DNA of 64,000 nucleotides from Armatimonadota bacterium (lineage in GTDB: Bacteria; Armatimonadota; UBA5829; DTJY01): the NCBI GenBank assembly GCA_023511795.1, contig JAIMAU010000002.1, positions 248,001 through 312,000 of the forward strand, given 5' to 3'. The notes under the pieces were generated by a model. It was not told the DNA's origin. It ran no database searches and saw only the letters and a program-made list of their open reading frames with translations. Within the stretch, counting starts at the first letter, position 1, and each line of letters starts with the position of its first letter. A program made the position numbers and the translations under genes. Shown one piece after another: positions 47,093 to 54,556 of this stretch.

Positions 47093-48209
47093 TATAGCTA
47101 ATGGTCAGGCAAAGGATAGGGTTTGTCTTTTTACCGGTGAAGTTGACGCCCGCAGGTATGAAGCTGTTGATGCACTTATCAGTCGTTTTGTTGATCCTGC
47201 TTTTGCAGAATTTGACCTTGAATATATCGATGCGGAGACATCATCTGCATCAGAAATCCTTTCTGCTGTTTCAACGGTTCCATTTGCTTCAGAGAGGAAA
47301 GTTGTCGTTGTTCAGGATGTTGACTGCTTAGGTGCGGATGAACAGCTCAAAATTGCTAATTTTCTTCCAAAGTTAAGTGCGAGGAGTTGTCTGATACTTC
47401 TAACTTCGGAAAAGGCGGTTACAGTAAAGCCAAAGAGCCAGGCAAAGGAAAAAGCTTCAACGGGTGCAGATGGCGAAGAGGAGGCTCCGAGAAAGGGGCT
47501 TCAGCCGAAGCTTCGGTCGGCAGTCGCCAAATATGGAACCATTGTTCATGCTGAAAAATTAAAAGGGGAGGCTCTTCGAAGGGCAGTTGTTGCAGAGGCA
47601 CACAAGCACGGAAAGGATATTCAGCAGGCGGCAGCGGAGGCTCTTGCGTACTCAATAGAAGGGAGCTTGGCGCTAATGCAACGTGAGATTGAGAAGCTTG
47701 CTATTTATATTGGCGATCGAAAGACTATCATGCTCGCCGATGTCGAACGTTTGACACCAAGGCCACCTGAAGATAGGATTTTTCCAATGATTGATGCGAT
47801 TGGAGCAGGTAAGAAGGCGCAGGCGATTAAGCTCCTCCAGGAGACTCTTATGGCAAGCGCAAGACCCGAGGAAGAGGTCATGCGAATTTTAGCGATGCTA
47901 GCTCGGCACTTTCGCTTACTTTATCAGATGGCGTATTTGAGGCAAATTGGCTTGGACCCTTTCTCCAAGGTGCCCGACGACGTTGCAGATATGTTGCCTA
48001 AGGAGCATAACATCTTGGAAACCGCAGAATATGCAAGGAGGGCAATGGCGGCGCAGTTGCGGTTTTTTACTATGCCTCAAATCATGAAGTGCTTGAAGCA
48101 GGTTCTTGCAACTGAGCTGGTAACAAAAGGCGTTGAGGGAGAAGCTAGCTCCCGCCGGTTGAACCTCGAAATCCTCATAATGAGGCTTTGCGATCGAGAA
48201 AGGTGTTAA
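47085..48209 (+). CDS. holA: DNA polymerase III delta subunit
   Basis: Part of the clamp loader that places the sliding clamp on DNA. The 374-residue protein has the HolA layout: domain I (ERKVVVVQDVDCLGADEQL, SCLILLTSEKA), the helical lid (IQQAAAEALAYSIEGSLALMQ, EIEKLAIYIGD) and the C-terminal helical collar (EDRIFPMIDAIGAGKKAQAI, EEEVMRILAMLARHFRLLYQ). An insertion of about 30 charged residues (around residues 107-140, with many Lys and Glu) interrupts domain I. The TgpA gene overlaps its start by eight bases, an arrangement I do not know from other groups. Confidence 0.93.
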   Translation: MNNIANGQAKDRVCLFTGEVDARRYEAVDALISRFVDPAFAEFDLEYIDAETSSASEILSAVSTVPFASERKVVVVQDVDCLGADEQLKIANFLPKLSARSCLILLTSEKAVTVKPKSQAKEKASTGADGEEEAPRKGLQPKLRSAVAKYGTIVHAEKLKGEALRRAVVAEAHKHGKDIQQAAAEALAYSIEGSLALMQREIEKLAIYIGDRKTIMLADVERLTPRPPEDRIFPMIDAIGAGKKAQAIKLLQETLMASARPEEEVMRILAMLARHFRLLYQMAYLRQIGLDPFSKVPDDVADMLPKEHNILETAEYARRAMAAQLRFFTMPQIMKCLKQVLATELVTKGVEGEASSRRLNLEILIMRLCDRERC

Positions 48210-48216
48210 GGGCTCC

Positions 48217-48714
48217 TTAGTCTGACTGGGGCAAGTATTTTATAAATTTCCCACTATTGGGTGTCGTCTCAATATACAGCGCGTCGTAGGGTTGAGAATC
48301 TCCTTGCCTGTAGTAGATGACGTGATCGTCCGTGTAGTCTCCTGTGGTTATCACATTGACTGATACCGGTCCGCCCGACGCTATCCAAGTTTTTCCTTGA
48401 TAGGTGAAAGATGTCGGTAGCCCAGGTGGTAAGACTGCTTCGCCTTGTGGTTGAGTTGGCGTTTGTGGCTGAGCGGTTTCTGGGGACGGTTGCTGAGGAG
48501 GTATTTCCGCAGGCGGTGGCGTTGGTGGTTGGACTTCCTTTTTTATGAAGTCCTCAGGTCGGCCAGTTTTGACTTTTGGCCCGGTTACGACAATTGTTTT
48601 AGGCGGGCGACTAGAAGCGGCTGAGATAAGTGTTAGGACGAGGAGGATACTGGCAATTCCCAGTGCGAACCAAATCCAGTTATGCGTGCGATTGGTTTTA
48701 TCAGTAGTAGCCAT
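48217..48714 (-). CDS. membrane-anchored protein of unknown function with proline-rich linker
   Basis: 165 residues. A short basic N-terminus, one membrane helix (WIWFALGIASILLVLTLISAA), a proline- and glutamine-rich stretch of about 60 residues (PPTPPPAEIPPQQPSPETAQ and more) and a C-terminal domain of about 55 residues (GKTWIASGGPVSVNVITT, DDHVIYYRQGDSQPYDALYI). The layout suggests a small domain held away from the membrane by a stiff spacer. I do not recognise the domain. ATG 48714 follows AAGGGG at the right distance; a GTG at 48720 is less good. It converges with holA with only seven bases between stops. Confidence 0.6.
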   Translation of the reverse strand: MATTDKTNRTHNWIWFALGIASILLVLTLISAASSRPPKTIVVTGPKVKTGRPEDFIKKEVQPPTPPPAEIPPQQPSPETAQPQTPTQPQGEAVLPPGLPTSFTYQGKTWIASGGPVSVNVITTGDYTDDHVIYYRQGDSQPYDALYIETTPNSGKFIKYLPQSD

Positions 48715-48811
48715 ACGCACCCCTTATGTTTAGTAGCGCTTTTGAATTTCAATTCATTAATACCCAAAGAGGTGCGTTTGCAATCACGGGCATGCAATGG
48801 CACAATTTTAC

Positions 48812-48918: not shown

Positions 48919-49164
48919 TTATGTTGGAGACAAAACCCCCAGCTCTGCTGCGCGCCGGAGTGCCTGAATTCGATTCGAAACACCCAGCTTTTCATAAATT
49001 TTTGCTAGATGAAAGTCCACAGTGCGTTTGCTTAGGTAGAGGATCTCGGCAACCTCTCCGCTTGACTTACCTTCGAGGATCAAGTTCAAGACTTCGATCT
49101 CCCGCGCGGTCAAAGAGGGCGTCTCCCTGCGGTCAGAAGAAGGTATGGATAAGGTGGTGGCCAT
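48919..49164 (-). CDS. stand-alone LuxR-type (GerE) helix-turn-helix regulator
   Basis: 81 residues, nearly all one GerE domain: PSLTAREIEVLNLILEGKSS, EVAEILYLSKRTVDFHLAKI and YEKLGVSNRIQALRRAAEL. The recognition helix is SKRTVDFHLAKIY. There is no receiver, PAS or autoinducer-binding domain, so its activity must be set by amount or by partner proteins, as for B. subtilis GerE. It is followed by a 600-base non-coding region on its upstream side, which includes a 20-base imperfect palindrome of the length and spacing typical for LuxR-type sites. Confidence 0.85.
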   Translation of the reverse strand: MATTLSIPSSDRRETPSLTAREIEVLNLILEGKSSGEVAEILYLSKRTVDFHLAKIYEKLGVSNRIQALRRAAELGVLSPT

Positions 49165-49484
49165 CCTTCAGCTCCCCTTTCCGCTTAACCTCTTGGCTCC
49201 AAAGAGCCGGGCTTTGCTATTGCCGGTATCTCGTTGTATTCGGCTTTGTATTTAGCAGTAGATATAAACTACAACGATATCCGGTCCCTGAGATCACCTG
49301 CTCTGCGTCAGGTTTTTATTTATGCCTGCGTCTTCGATTTCTGTTTAGCTCTGAATCAAAGAGCGGCTTTGCCGCCCGGTACTATGTAAAAGCAATTGAT
49401 GGCTTTGATTGGGGTGTGCTATATCTTCTTTGTTCAAGTGCGATTTTATTAAAAGTTCGCCTTATTGTCAACTTTCGAACATAA

Positions 49485-49524
49485 AACTGGTAAAATTACC
49501 AGGTGTGTAAAGATTATATATACT
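49485..49524 (+). promoter_or_regulatory. operator-like palindrome overlapping a promoter
   Basis: AACTGGTAAAATTACCAGGT (49485-49504) is an imperfect 20-base palindrome with eight of ten positions symmetrical. Its right half contains TTACCA (49496-49501), a fair -35, followed by a 17-base spacer and TATACT (49519-49524). A bound regulator would cover the -35. Predicted start is near 49531. Confidence 0.5.
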
Positions 49525-49530
49525 ACAGTC

Positions 49531-49698
49531 AATTGGTACCTCATATATCCTGGCACTAATGCCTGTTTATTGATGATTTATTGATAATGGCACATGTTCT
49601 GCAACAATTTTAGATAGCGCAACTCTTCTCCTTCCAGGCTTGATTTAGGATCCTCATGATCCAACCCGTCCAGCAGGCGCTGGCGGGTTTTCTTTTTT
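49531..49698 (+). ncRNA. predicted small RNA, about 165 bases, with C/U-rich anti-Shine-Dalgarno segment
   Basis: The transcript runs from the promoter at 49496-49524 to the intrinsic terminator at 49663-49698. Visible structure: hairpin GGCA-CTAA-TGCC (49552-49563), two tandem near-copies of TTTATTGATGA (49566-49576, 49577-49587), an unpaired pyrimidine run CTCTTCTCCTTCC (49623-49635), hairpin GGATC-CTCAT-GATCC (49648-49662) and the terminator. C/U-rich unpaired segments between hairpins are the seed regions of many trans-acting small RNAs in Gram-positive bacteria. ACTCTTCTCCTT is perfectly complementary to 12557-12568 in the leader of the corrinoid-protein gene. No known RNA family fits. 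All of this is inferred from signals, not homology. Confidence 0.45.
49663..49698 (+). terminator. plus-strand intrinsic terminator with no plus-strand protein gene before it
   Basis: AACCCG-T-CCAGC (49663-49674), four-base loop, GCTGG-CGGGTT (49679-49689), then TTCTTTTTT. The T-run is only on the plus strand, so it does not serve the minus-strand GH78 gene. The nearest plus-strand gene upstream, holA, ends 1.45 kb away behind two minus-strand genes. Confidence 0.8.
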
Positions 49699-49771
49699 AT
49701 ATTTTTCAAAGAAAATTGGGCAATGGTTGGGTAATTTTTATTTGAATACTTATTCTTTTTGCCAATTAGCA

Positions 49772-52390
49772 TTAATTGTTAAAGGCGACAGTTAGCTCAT
49801 ATTTTCCAGATTGTTCGATTGTTAAATAGGCTCTACCACAACGGAGTCCAGAAAAGGAGATACCTGCAGGCAGAAGTTGACTTCCGTTTACTAATACTTT
49901 TGGTGTCTTGCTATCGTCAGGCAGCGGCAGGCTAACATCCGCCTTCATTCCCTTGGGAATCTTAATTGCAATTCGAAAAGCATCCTTGTTATTTTTCCAA
50001 TCAACTTCAACGTCGCCTAGAGGTGTTGGTACACACCCCTTTGCCCAATCTAGGCTGCCAGCGTTTGGGGCAATGGACACTCGGCGAAACCCTGGTTTGG
50101 CTGGGCTTATTCCTAATATATACTTGGACAGATGTGAGGTTGGGGCGGAAGACCACCCGTGGCATAGTGAATTTGAATTATGCCAATTCTCCCAAAGTGT
50201 GGTTGAGCCCCAGTCGAGCATTTTGCCCCAGTTGGTCTCGATGAAGTCGAGTGCTTCACTGTGCATGTTGTTTTCGAAAAGCGCTTCGAGGAAGAAGTAG
50301 GAGAAGAATGGGCCGCCAGGTATTATGCCGCTTGATGTATCAAGAGCCTTCGCAAGTATCGCCTTACGGACTTCAACGGGGGCGATTCCATAGACAGCGG
50401 CGAGGCCGTTCGGCATCTGGCTAAGTTCGCTTGAGAAAGTTTTGTCCTTCTCTGAGTAGTATTCAGCATACATCCCTCTAGAGTAATCAAAGAGCCTTGA
50501 GTTAATTGCTAATTTTACTTCCTCAGCCCGAGTGGAAAGTTTAGTTGCTGTTTCATTATCTCCAACTAACTTCGCAAGCTCAGAGGCATCTAAGAGCGCC
50601 TTGTAATATAGGCAGTTCTGCGCTGTAATAGTGCCCTTGAGCTGGCCAGCGGTCCAATCAATAAAGTTCCAATGCGGTAAGTCGGTTAGCAGGCCAAAGG
50701 CATCCTTTTGTGCTTCAAACCAGCCAATTAGTTTTTTTACTTTGGGGAAGATTTCGGCAACAAGGGTTCTGTCGCCAGTATACATGTAGTAGTCTTGGAT
50801 TGACATAATCCAATAGAGACAAAAAGCCGGGATTGGGTTATCAAACGTTCCTGGCCAAAAACACATTGTTATGCCATTTGGCTTTTGTGATTGGCCTATT
50901 TGCTTAATACCCTTTCGGATAAGATAAGTATCGCCAAATACGTAATAATTGGTCATCGCCTCGACTCGGGCATCGCCCCACCATTGTGTGCGTTCTCGCC
51001 AAGGGCAGTCAGTGTAGGCGTCTTCCATATTGAGCTGAACTGTGTACGCGCCCACCCTCCATATTTCGTTCAGTCGTTCGTTTGAGCATTCGAAGTATCC
51101 GCGCCATTTAACCGGATAGGTGGAGAAATTCACGCTAATGGATTCGATAACTACTGGGCCTGGGCAGTCGCGAAAGTCAAGCTGCATATACCTAAATGCA
51201 CGTTTATCGAAAGTCTCCCAAGTTTGGCGATTGGGCTTCATTCGGTATCTATCTGCGTAATGGACGCCGCTACGATGGGGGTCGACCTTTCCTTCGGTAA
51301 GCAGTTCGCCGTATCCGATATCTATTACACCCCCGCTCGATGCGAGGATATTGATTCGGGGGTAGCCTGTGATTTCGCGGCCAAAGTCAAGAACGATATA
51401 TACTGCTTTTCCGGCCTTGCGTTCTTTTTCTGGGAGTGGATAAACAGTGCATACGCCTAGCTTTGAATTTGTTGCCGAAAACGCAGGCAAAGTCTTTCCC
51501 CTAGGGTCCAAAGGTTGAGAATGTAGGATATCTTCAATATTTGGCCGCCTGATGAGCGCTTGTGGGTTTGTGACCAGTATGGCTGTGTTTTGTGCCTTTT
51601 TTCTAACTTCATGGCTCATCAATGCGGCTATTGAGGCCTTATCGTCATAGGGGTTATCGTTTGGAGATGGCTCAGCAGTGCCTATTTCATAGATTGCCGT
51701 TGGGAATATCTCCTGTTCATACATCTGGGGGATTTCGCTCGGCACAAGCATGGGCCATGGGTCCATACCCGATGGGCCGATTACCTTTGCCTTCTCCCAG
51801 TTTGAATCATCGAAGCAGACTTCAGTCCATCCATCGGGGGCAAGATTTGCATCGTAAACTTCGTTGAATCCCAACTGCACGTCCATTCGCGGTAGATCGC
51901 GGAACCAGGCTTTGGCTGGCAACACCCGCCAAGATTCGTCGGATGCGAGCGTAAGCTTCTTACATTTGCTAGAGTTGGCATCTGTGTAAAAAATTGACCC
52001 GTCAAAGATGAAGCCGCCTCGCCCGAGTATGTAGAAGAATGTTCCTGTGCCGTAGTGATGAACCAAAGCAGCAATTACATTCTTGCCGGATGTTAGGTAA
52101 GGTGAAAGGTCATAAGTGTCATAGTACTGCCATCGAGGGTCAGACCGCGCAGGGCCGCGCCCAACGAACCGGCCATTTACGTAGAGCTTGTAGCGGCTGT
52201 CAGCGCAAATCCGCACGGGTGCGGTGACAGCGTTTCCAGGCAAGTTGAATGTCTTTCGAACATACAAGTAGTAGTTGACCGGCTTGTCCTCGCCTGAGTC
52301 CCATATCCATTTGCCTTTCCAGCTTCCAGCGGCAGGGCGGACGCTGAAGATTAGGCAGAGAACGGCGCAAAGGATGATGATTCTGCACAT
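49772..52390 (-). CDS. secreted GH78 alpha-L-rhamnosidase
   Basis: 872 residues. Signal peptide CRIIILCAVLCLIFSVRPAA, then an N-terminal carbohydrate-binding-like sandwich (GKWIWDSGEDKPVNYYLYVR, YKLYVNGRFVGRGPARSDP), a second sandwich (IYIVLDFGREITGYPRI-like segment) and the (alpha/alpha)6 barrel from about residue 430. The catalytic loop reads DAYTDCPWRERTQWWGDAR, where Glu466 should be the general acid (the usual form is CPQRDERLGW). LWENWHNSNSLCHGWSSAPT and GFRRVSIAPN are C-terminal GH78 signatures. It removes terminal L-rhamnose from plant or bacterial glycans outside the cell; RhaI at 42401 could use the product. A 12-base palindrome lies 41 bases before the start. Confidence 0.88.
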   Translation of the reverse strand: MCRIIILCAVLCLIFSVRPAAGSWKGKWIWDSGEDKPVNYYLYVRKTFNLPGNAVTAPVRICADSRYKLYVNGRFVGRGPARSDPRWQYYDTYDLSPYLTSGKNVIAALVHHYGTGTFFYILGRGGFIFDGSIFYTDANSSKCKKLTLASDESWRVLPAKAWFRDLPRMDVQLGFNEVYDANLAPDGWTEVCFDDSNWEKAKVIGPSGMDPWPMLVPSEIPQMYEQEIFPTAIYEIGTAEPSPNDNPYDDKASIAALMSHEVRKKAQNTAILVTNPQALIRRPNIEDILHSQPLDPRGKTLPAFSATNSKLGVCTVYPLPEKERKAGKAVYIVLDFGREITGYPRINILASSGGVIDIGYGELLTEGKVDPHRSGVHYADRYRMKPNRQTWETFDKRAFRYMQLDFRDCPGPVVIESISVNFSTYPVKWRGYFECSNERLNEIWRVGAYTVQLNMEDAYTDCPWRERTQWWGDARVEAMTNYYVFGDTYLIRKGIKQIGQSQKPNGITMCFWPGTFDNPIPAFCLYWIMSIQDYYMYTGDRTLVAEIFPKVKKLIGWFEAQKDAFGLLTDLPHWNFIDWTAGQLKGTITAQNCLYYKALLDASELAKLVGDNETATKLSTRAEEVKLAINSRLFDYSRGMYAEYYSEKDKTFSSELSQMPNGLAAVYGIAPVEVRKAILAKALDTSSGIIPGGPFFSYFFLEALFENNMHSEALDFIETNWGKMLDWGSTTLWENWHNSNSLCHGWSSAPTSHLSKYILGISPAKPGFRRVSIAPNAGSLDWAKGCVPTPLGDVEVDWKNNKDAFRIAIKIPKGMKADVSLPLPDDSKTPKVLVNGSQLLPAGISFSGLRCGRAYLTIEQSGKYELTVAFNN

Positions 52391-54523: not shown

Positions 54524-54556
54524 AAAGGGCCCCGGATTATTATTCCGAGGCCCTTT
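54524..54556 (-). terminator. intrinsic terminator after the anti-sigma-like gene
   Basis: AAAGGGCC-C-CGG (from 54524) pairs with CCG-A-GGCCCTTT (to 54556) around an AT loop, with T-runs on both sides. It lies 24 bases after the minus-strand stop at 54580 and just upstream of the dinG promoter. Confidence 0.85.

Follow-up and report, generated by a model that had tools for sequence, protein, structure and literature searches.

Positions 49485-49698 of the DNA analyzed here (the window, a 64,000-nt stretch of an Armatimonadota genome) hold a predicted gene for a small non-coding RNA that has its own promoter and terminator and matches no known family. The anatomy of the sequence, constraint between this genome and a sister species, and the failure of protein-coding readings all support this assignment well. 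Our preferred reading, in which we place roughly even confidence, is that the gene encodes a lineage-specific sRNA candidate of about 165 nt, divergent from a LuxR-type regulator gene of a PEP-CTERM/exopolysaccharide regulon and probably occluded when the operator is bound. The anatomy and constraint of the RNA gene, the operator, its spacing and its association with PEP-CTERM genes are read directly from the sequences. The RNA unit comprises the following features.

49496..49524, plus strand: candidate sRNA promoter TTACCA-N17-TATACT (-35 at 49496-49501, -10 at 49519-49524)
49531..49698, plus strand: candidate small RNA of about 165 nt, with its putative start 7 nt downstream of the -10
49567..49587, plus strand: AU hairpin from two 11-base near-repeats (49566-49576 and 49577-49587)
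49624..49636, plus strand: pyrimidine run CTCTTCTCCTTCC, mostly unpaired in the prediction, a possible anti-Shine-Dalgarno (SD) seed
49648..49662, plus strand: small pre-terminator hairpin GGATC-CTCAT-GATCC of the predicted fold
about 49663..49698, plus strand: intrinsic terminator (stem 49663-49689, T-run TTTTCTTTTTT)

The promoter claimed by the initial annotation, TTACCA-N17-TATACT, is present at 49496-49524. Bare consensus matches of this kind occur at chance level (4 found against 2.8 expected in shuffles), and the sRNA promoter carries more weight than such a match because the sister species has identical hexamers around a divergent spacer, and because its -35 lies inside a conserved operator. 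The strong terminator, its T-run confined to the plus strand, was part of the same claim and is borne out by a strict terminator rule: an 11-bp stem at -18 kcal/mol is followed by TTTTCTTTTTT, and just two places on both strands of the 64-kb window satisfy the rule, this one included. Position 54554 (plus strand) is the sole other. No upstream plus-strand gene explains the terminator, as had been argued; the nearest, encoding the DNA polymerase III delta subunit, ends at 48209. A riboswitch or attenuator leader is ruled out, as the next downstream gene is on the minus strand. By sequence alone, the locus has the arrangement of a trans-acting sRNA, in which a non-coding body is flanked by its own promoter and a Rho-independent terminator.

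Folding of the transcript, a check that the initial annotation had proposed, gives an ordinary overall energy (z -1.25). The tandem 11-base near-repeat is present as described, and its two copies pair with one another as the AU hairpin, while the pyrimidine run, said to be unpaired, is predicted to be mostly so. The earlier failure to match any known family is matched by an Rfam 15 search of the sRNA region, which is empty at gathering and lenient thresholds (top sub-threshold match 18 bits against 45).

Among 291 genomes of the phylum, the sRNA is found in two, this genome (G000) and the sister species (G001), and only the sister has a counterpart of the surrounding intergenic region. In the body of the RNA (49547-49641), 3 of 95 nt have changed, compared with divergence of 11-14% at third codon positions and in outer intergenic DNA (p 0.001-0.004 for constraint, in a stretch picked after looking at the alignment). 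The whole transcript has 10 changes in 167 positions (p 0.003-0.013 against the same neutral-like references). The palindromic operator described below, both promoter hexamers and the pyrimidine run are identical in the sister, and the promoter spacer is altered. The hairpins that had been proposed hold up in part. In the AU hairpin, the single sister change retains the pair as U-G, and in the GGATC/GATCC pre-terminator hairpin A49650G retains G-U pairing, but a weak 5′ hairpin is broken there. Changes in the terminator are confined to the loop, leaving the stem intact. Apart from the 5′ hairpin, changes keep pairs or sit in the loops of the terminator and pre-terminator hairpins, in a comparison of two genomes, too few for proper covariation. 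We take this two-sequence pattern as support for a functional RNA, not as proof.

If there were no functional RNA, the promoter and terminator would have arisen by chance and the conservation would reflect the short divergence of two genomes. The chance-level promoter match and the presence of the element in only two genomes are compatible with this, yet the terminator is strong, divergence is below neutral, and the changes fall in loops and the promoter spacer, which makes the explanation highly improbable. A further reading denies the plus-strand unit any action in trans and takes it as a mere terminator, or as a short cis-antisense RNA to the rhamnosidase transcript's 3′ end. The rhamnosidase gene does converge on the sRNA unit, with no good minus-strand terminator after it. 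However, constraint on the body and pyrimidine run contrasts with ~14% divergence from the sister in the DNA 3′ of the terminator (49699-49771), closer to the rhamnosidase gene, and the dedicated promoter is conserved; we therefore regard this reading as unlikely.

The claim that the ~165 bases hold no credible protein gene also stands. No plus-strand ORF in the transcript exceeds 10 aa, and a 64-aa minus-strand ORF (49578-49772, tail KKTRQRLLDGLDHEDPKSSLEGEELRYLKLLQNMCHYQ) that crosses the sRNA fails as a candidate. This ORF starts at a TAATG adjoining the rhamnosidase stop, and of the six substitutions that separate it from the sister, five are synonymous, as might be expected if a small protein accounted for the conservation and the sRNA signals were incidental. 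We rate that explanation as quite improbable, since an early stop and an insertion of one base disrupt the sister copy, and the ORF has no Pfam/NCBIfam family and no convincing relative among the 291 genomes.

The initial annotation overlooked a palindrome over the -35 that connects the RNA with both PEP-CTERM genes and a LuxR-type regulator. The sRNA -35, TTACCA, is the right arm of this palindrome, CTGGTAAAATTACCAG, and the divergent side of the locus is arranged as follows.

49487..49502, no strand: 16-bp perfect palindrome CTGGTAAAATTACCAG, candidate operator common to the sRNA and luxR-type promoters
49443..49471, minus strand: luxR-type gene promoter, TTGACA-N17-TAAAAT, separated from the operator by 15 nt
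49165..49442, minus strand: long 5′ leader preceding the luxR-type gene, in which two stretches are nearly invariant in the sister
48919..49164, minus strand: 81-aa stand-alone GerE (LuxR-family) protein (PF00196), candidate operator-binding regulator

The 81-aa protein is a member of the GerE family (PF00196, E 3.5e-19, 68.6 bits against a gathering threshold of 23.5). Relatives of its gene that carry organism names are the basis for assigning the DNA to Armatimonadota. Its top NCBIfam profile is TIGR03020, EpsA, an XrtB/PEP-CTERM-associated LuxR-type regulator that resembles it in its GerE domain and PEP-CTERM association. The score of 56.9 bits, below the required 170, rules out EpsA membership, and the EpsA profile has 247 positions whereas the protein here consists of a DNA-binding domain only. 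Within the leader of the luxR-type gene, 49165-49262 has 1 change in 98 relative to the sister and 49359-49442 has 0 in 84; both stretches diverge less than coding sequence and neither has an Rfam match. The minus-strand gene at 48217-48720 encodes a protein of 167 aa that has a hydrophobic segment near its N terminus and matches no Pfam/NCBIfam family; 22 of 30 sister changes in it are at third positions, indicating purifying selection.

The ortholog of the luxR-type gene in G003, from another genus (locus L088), has the same layout of operator, 15 nt and promoter. This locus also holds a second copy of the palindrome and a paralogous GerE gene divergent from the ortholog; at L088 1740-2180 (G003:C4), the two divergent small GerE-type genes have the two operator copies in common. 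One copy overlaps the -10 of the ortholog promoter, which suggests feedback repression. Most other small LuxR genes of the phylum are without clear operator copies upstream.

The operator is strongly associated with PEP-CTERM genes. Using 30 loci selected by TIGR02595 alone, we find 19 operator sites in 16.7 kb upstream of PEP-CTERM genes versus 2 in 71 kb elsewhere (Fisher p 3e-12). This genome has seven PEP-CTERM genes above the cut-off, five of which carry the operator, as do four of six in the sister and six of nine examined in G003, all three genomes being of one family. A good operator is found at none of the eight PEP-CTERM loci examined in G004, and in G002, a member of the family, the operator, small LuxR genes and PEP-CTERM genes are all absent. 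At PEP-CTERM genes, the operators precede TTGACA-N17-TATACT promoters. In 30 of 38 cases TTGAC follows the operator by 0-1 nt (n=7), 15-16 nt (n=19) or 26 nt (n=4), with no other spacing seen more than once, in counts that include a few orthologous pairs from the two sister species. Activator sites typically show such discrete spacings from the promoter. Exact copies of the palindrome occur in 10 of 28 genomes of the class versus 4 of the remaining 263 in the phylum, and of the copies fetched, at least six of the nine in further families of the class are located at PEP-CTERM-like genes, against none of the four outside it. The palindrome is also found upstream of a polysaccharide export/chain-length gene pair; gene names at PEP-CTERM and polysaccharide operator sites are taken from translations rather than a profile search. 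This regulon element is better supported than the function of the sRNA.

From this arrangement we infer that the RNA is transcribed, and we infer the binding protein, the sign of control and the targets as follows. The GerE-type regulator would bind the palindromic operator shared between the sRNA and the luxR-type gene. At PEP-CTERM and luxR-type promoters, where the operator stands upstream of TTGACA, it probably acts as an activator site. At the sRNA promoter the operator takes the place of the -35 and covers it, and a regulator bound there would most likely prevent synthesis of the RNA. We favor repression by occlusion over activation here because the operator covers the -35 and its spacing is unlike that of any activator class. 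With the regulon off, the sRNA would be produced, and its exposed pyrimidine run would repress translation at purine-rich ribosome binding sites (RBSs).

The sRNA may instead be a positive member of the regulon, with the regulator activating from an operator that replaces the missing -35 and the RNA present in the ON state. The weak -35 within the operator and the activator-like placement of operators at other promoters are consistent with this, as is the second luxR-type gene of G003, divergent from the ortholog, where an operator also lies over the presumed -35. The -10 of the sRNA, however, starts 16 nt past the operator, outside the 0-1, 15-16 and 26 nt-to-TTGACA classes, and activation appears unlikely to us. 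Operator occlusion may also be set in a wider scheme, which we advance tentatively and with confidence well short of even: a class-wide PEP-CTERM/exopolysaccharide regulon outside Proteobacteria would use a GerE-only LuxR-type activator, a 16-bp palindrome and sigma-70 promoters, and one genus would have added an operator-repressed divergent sRNA that restrains translation of matrix genes.

The trans-acting, SD-blocking role first proposed for the RNA is plausible, though a guess. The conserved and mostly unpaired seed and the existence of complementary RBSs favor it, but the matches occur at about chance frequency. In both species, the RBSs of manC-like and LacI-type genes have 12-nt complementarity to the pyrimidine run, and by extrapolation from 44 window genes, RBS matches of 11-12 nt are expected about once per genome by chance. 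Genome-wide, the count of seed matches is modestly above the reversed control. The RBS of one PEP-CTERM gene (L151, G000:C2 about 69300), GGAAGGAGAAGGAGG, matches the seed over 11 nt; this gene carries two operators, and the sister copy is degraded. The manC-like matches are at mannose-1-phosphate guanylyltransferase RBSs at L170 and L181, in the two species.

Trans-acting bacterial sRNAs use C/U-rich seeds against SD sequences. The candidate resembles them in having its own promoter, an intrinsic terminator, an open pyrimidine seed and no ORF, but unlike them it is without a family match, is limited to one genus and has targets that are only predicted. LuxR/NarL-type regulators control sRNAs in the GacA-RsmY/RsmZ and UvrY-CsrB systems, and the likeness extends to the GerE domain of the regulator and to the palindrome at the sRNA promoter. 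The RNA here is not a CsrA/RsmA sponge of the CsrB/RsmY type, however, because the transcript holds a single GGA, located in a stem. In enteric bacteria, csgD encodes a LuxR-type regulator of the biofilm matrix that is itself subject to many sRNA regulators. The locus shares with this circuit a LuxR-type regulator, a long 5′ leader and an sRNA, but pairing of the sRNA with the luxR-type leader is no better than that of shuffled sequences.

A cis-regulatory site of PEP-CTERM genes, sigma-54-type and associated with PrsK/PrsR, has been described in Proteobacteria only, and further DNA motifs and regulators were predicted still to be found (Haft et al. 2006, PMC1569441). As with that element, a common DNA element lies upstream of most PEP-CTERM genes, within long non-coding upstream regions (PMC1569441). 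The PrsK/PrsR element has a sigma-54 -24/-12, whereas here a 16-bp palindrome stands before TTGACA/TATACT and the candidate regulator is GerE-only; the sites here precede TTGACA-N17-TATACT promoters, which rules out the PrsR/PrsK sigma-54 element. With its fixed promoter spacing, the palindrome is a strong candidate for a second PEP-CTERM control system, in Armatimonadota-like bacteria, with a candidate regulator. In a literature search of partial coverage, no publication dealing with the control of PEP-CTERM genes or with sRNAs in Armatimonadetes came up, and judging by the literature searched, this sRNA would be the first tied to a PEP-CTERM regulon. Overall, the RNA is a credible sRNA candidate, specific to its lineage and interesting for its regulatory setting.

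Two further operator sites are of note. One PEP-CTERM gene (L139, G000:C7; L138, G001:C21) has two tandem complete operator-promoter units 144 bp apart, an arrangement kept in both species. At L108 1178-1516 (G000:C1:325135), a CsrA-like gene is closely preceded by an operator-like site that has 2 mismatches.
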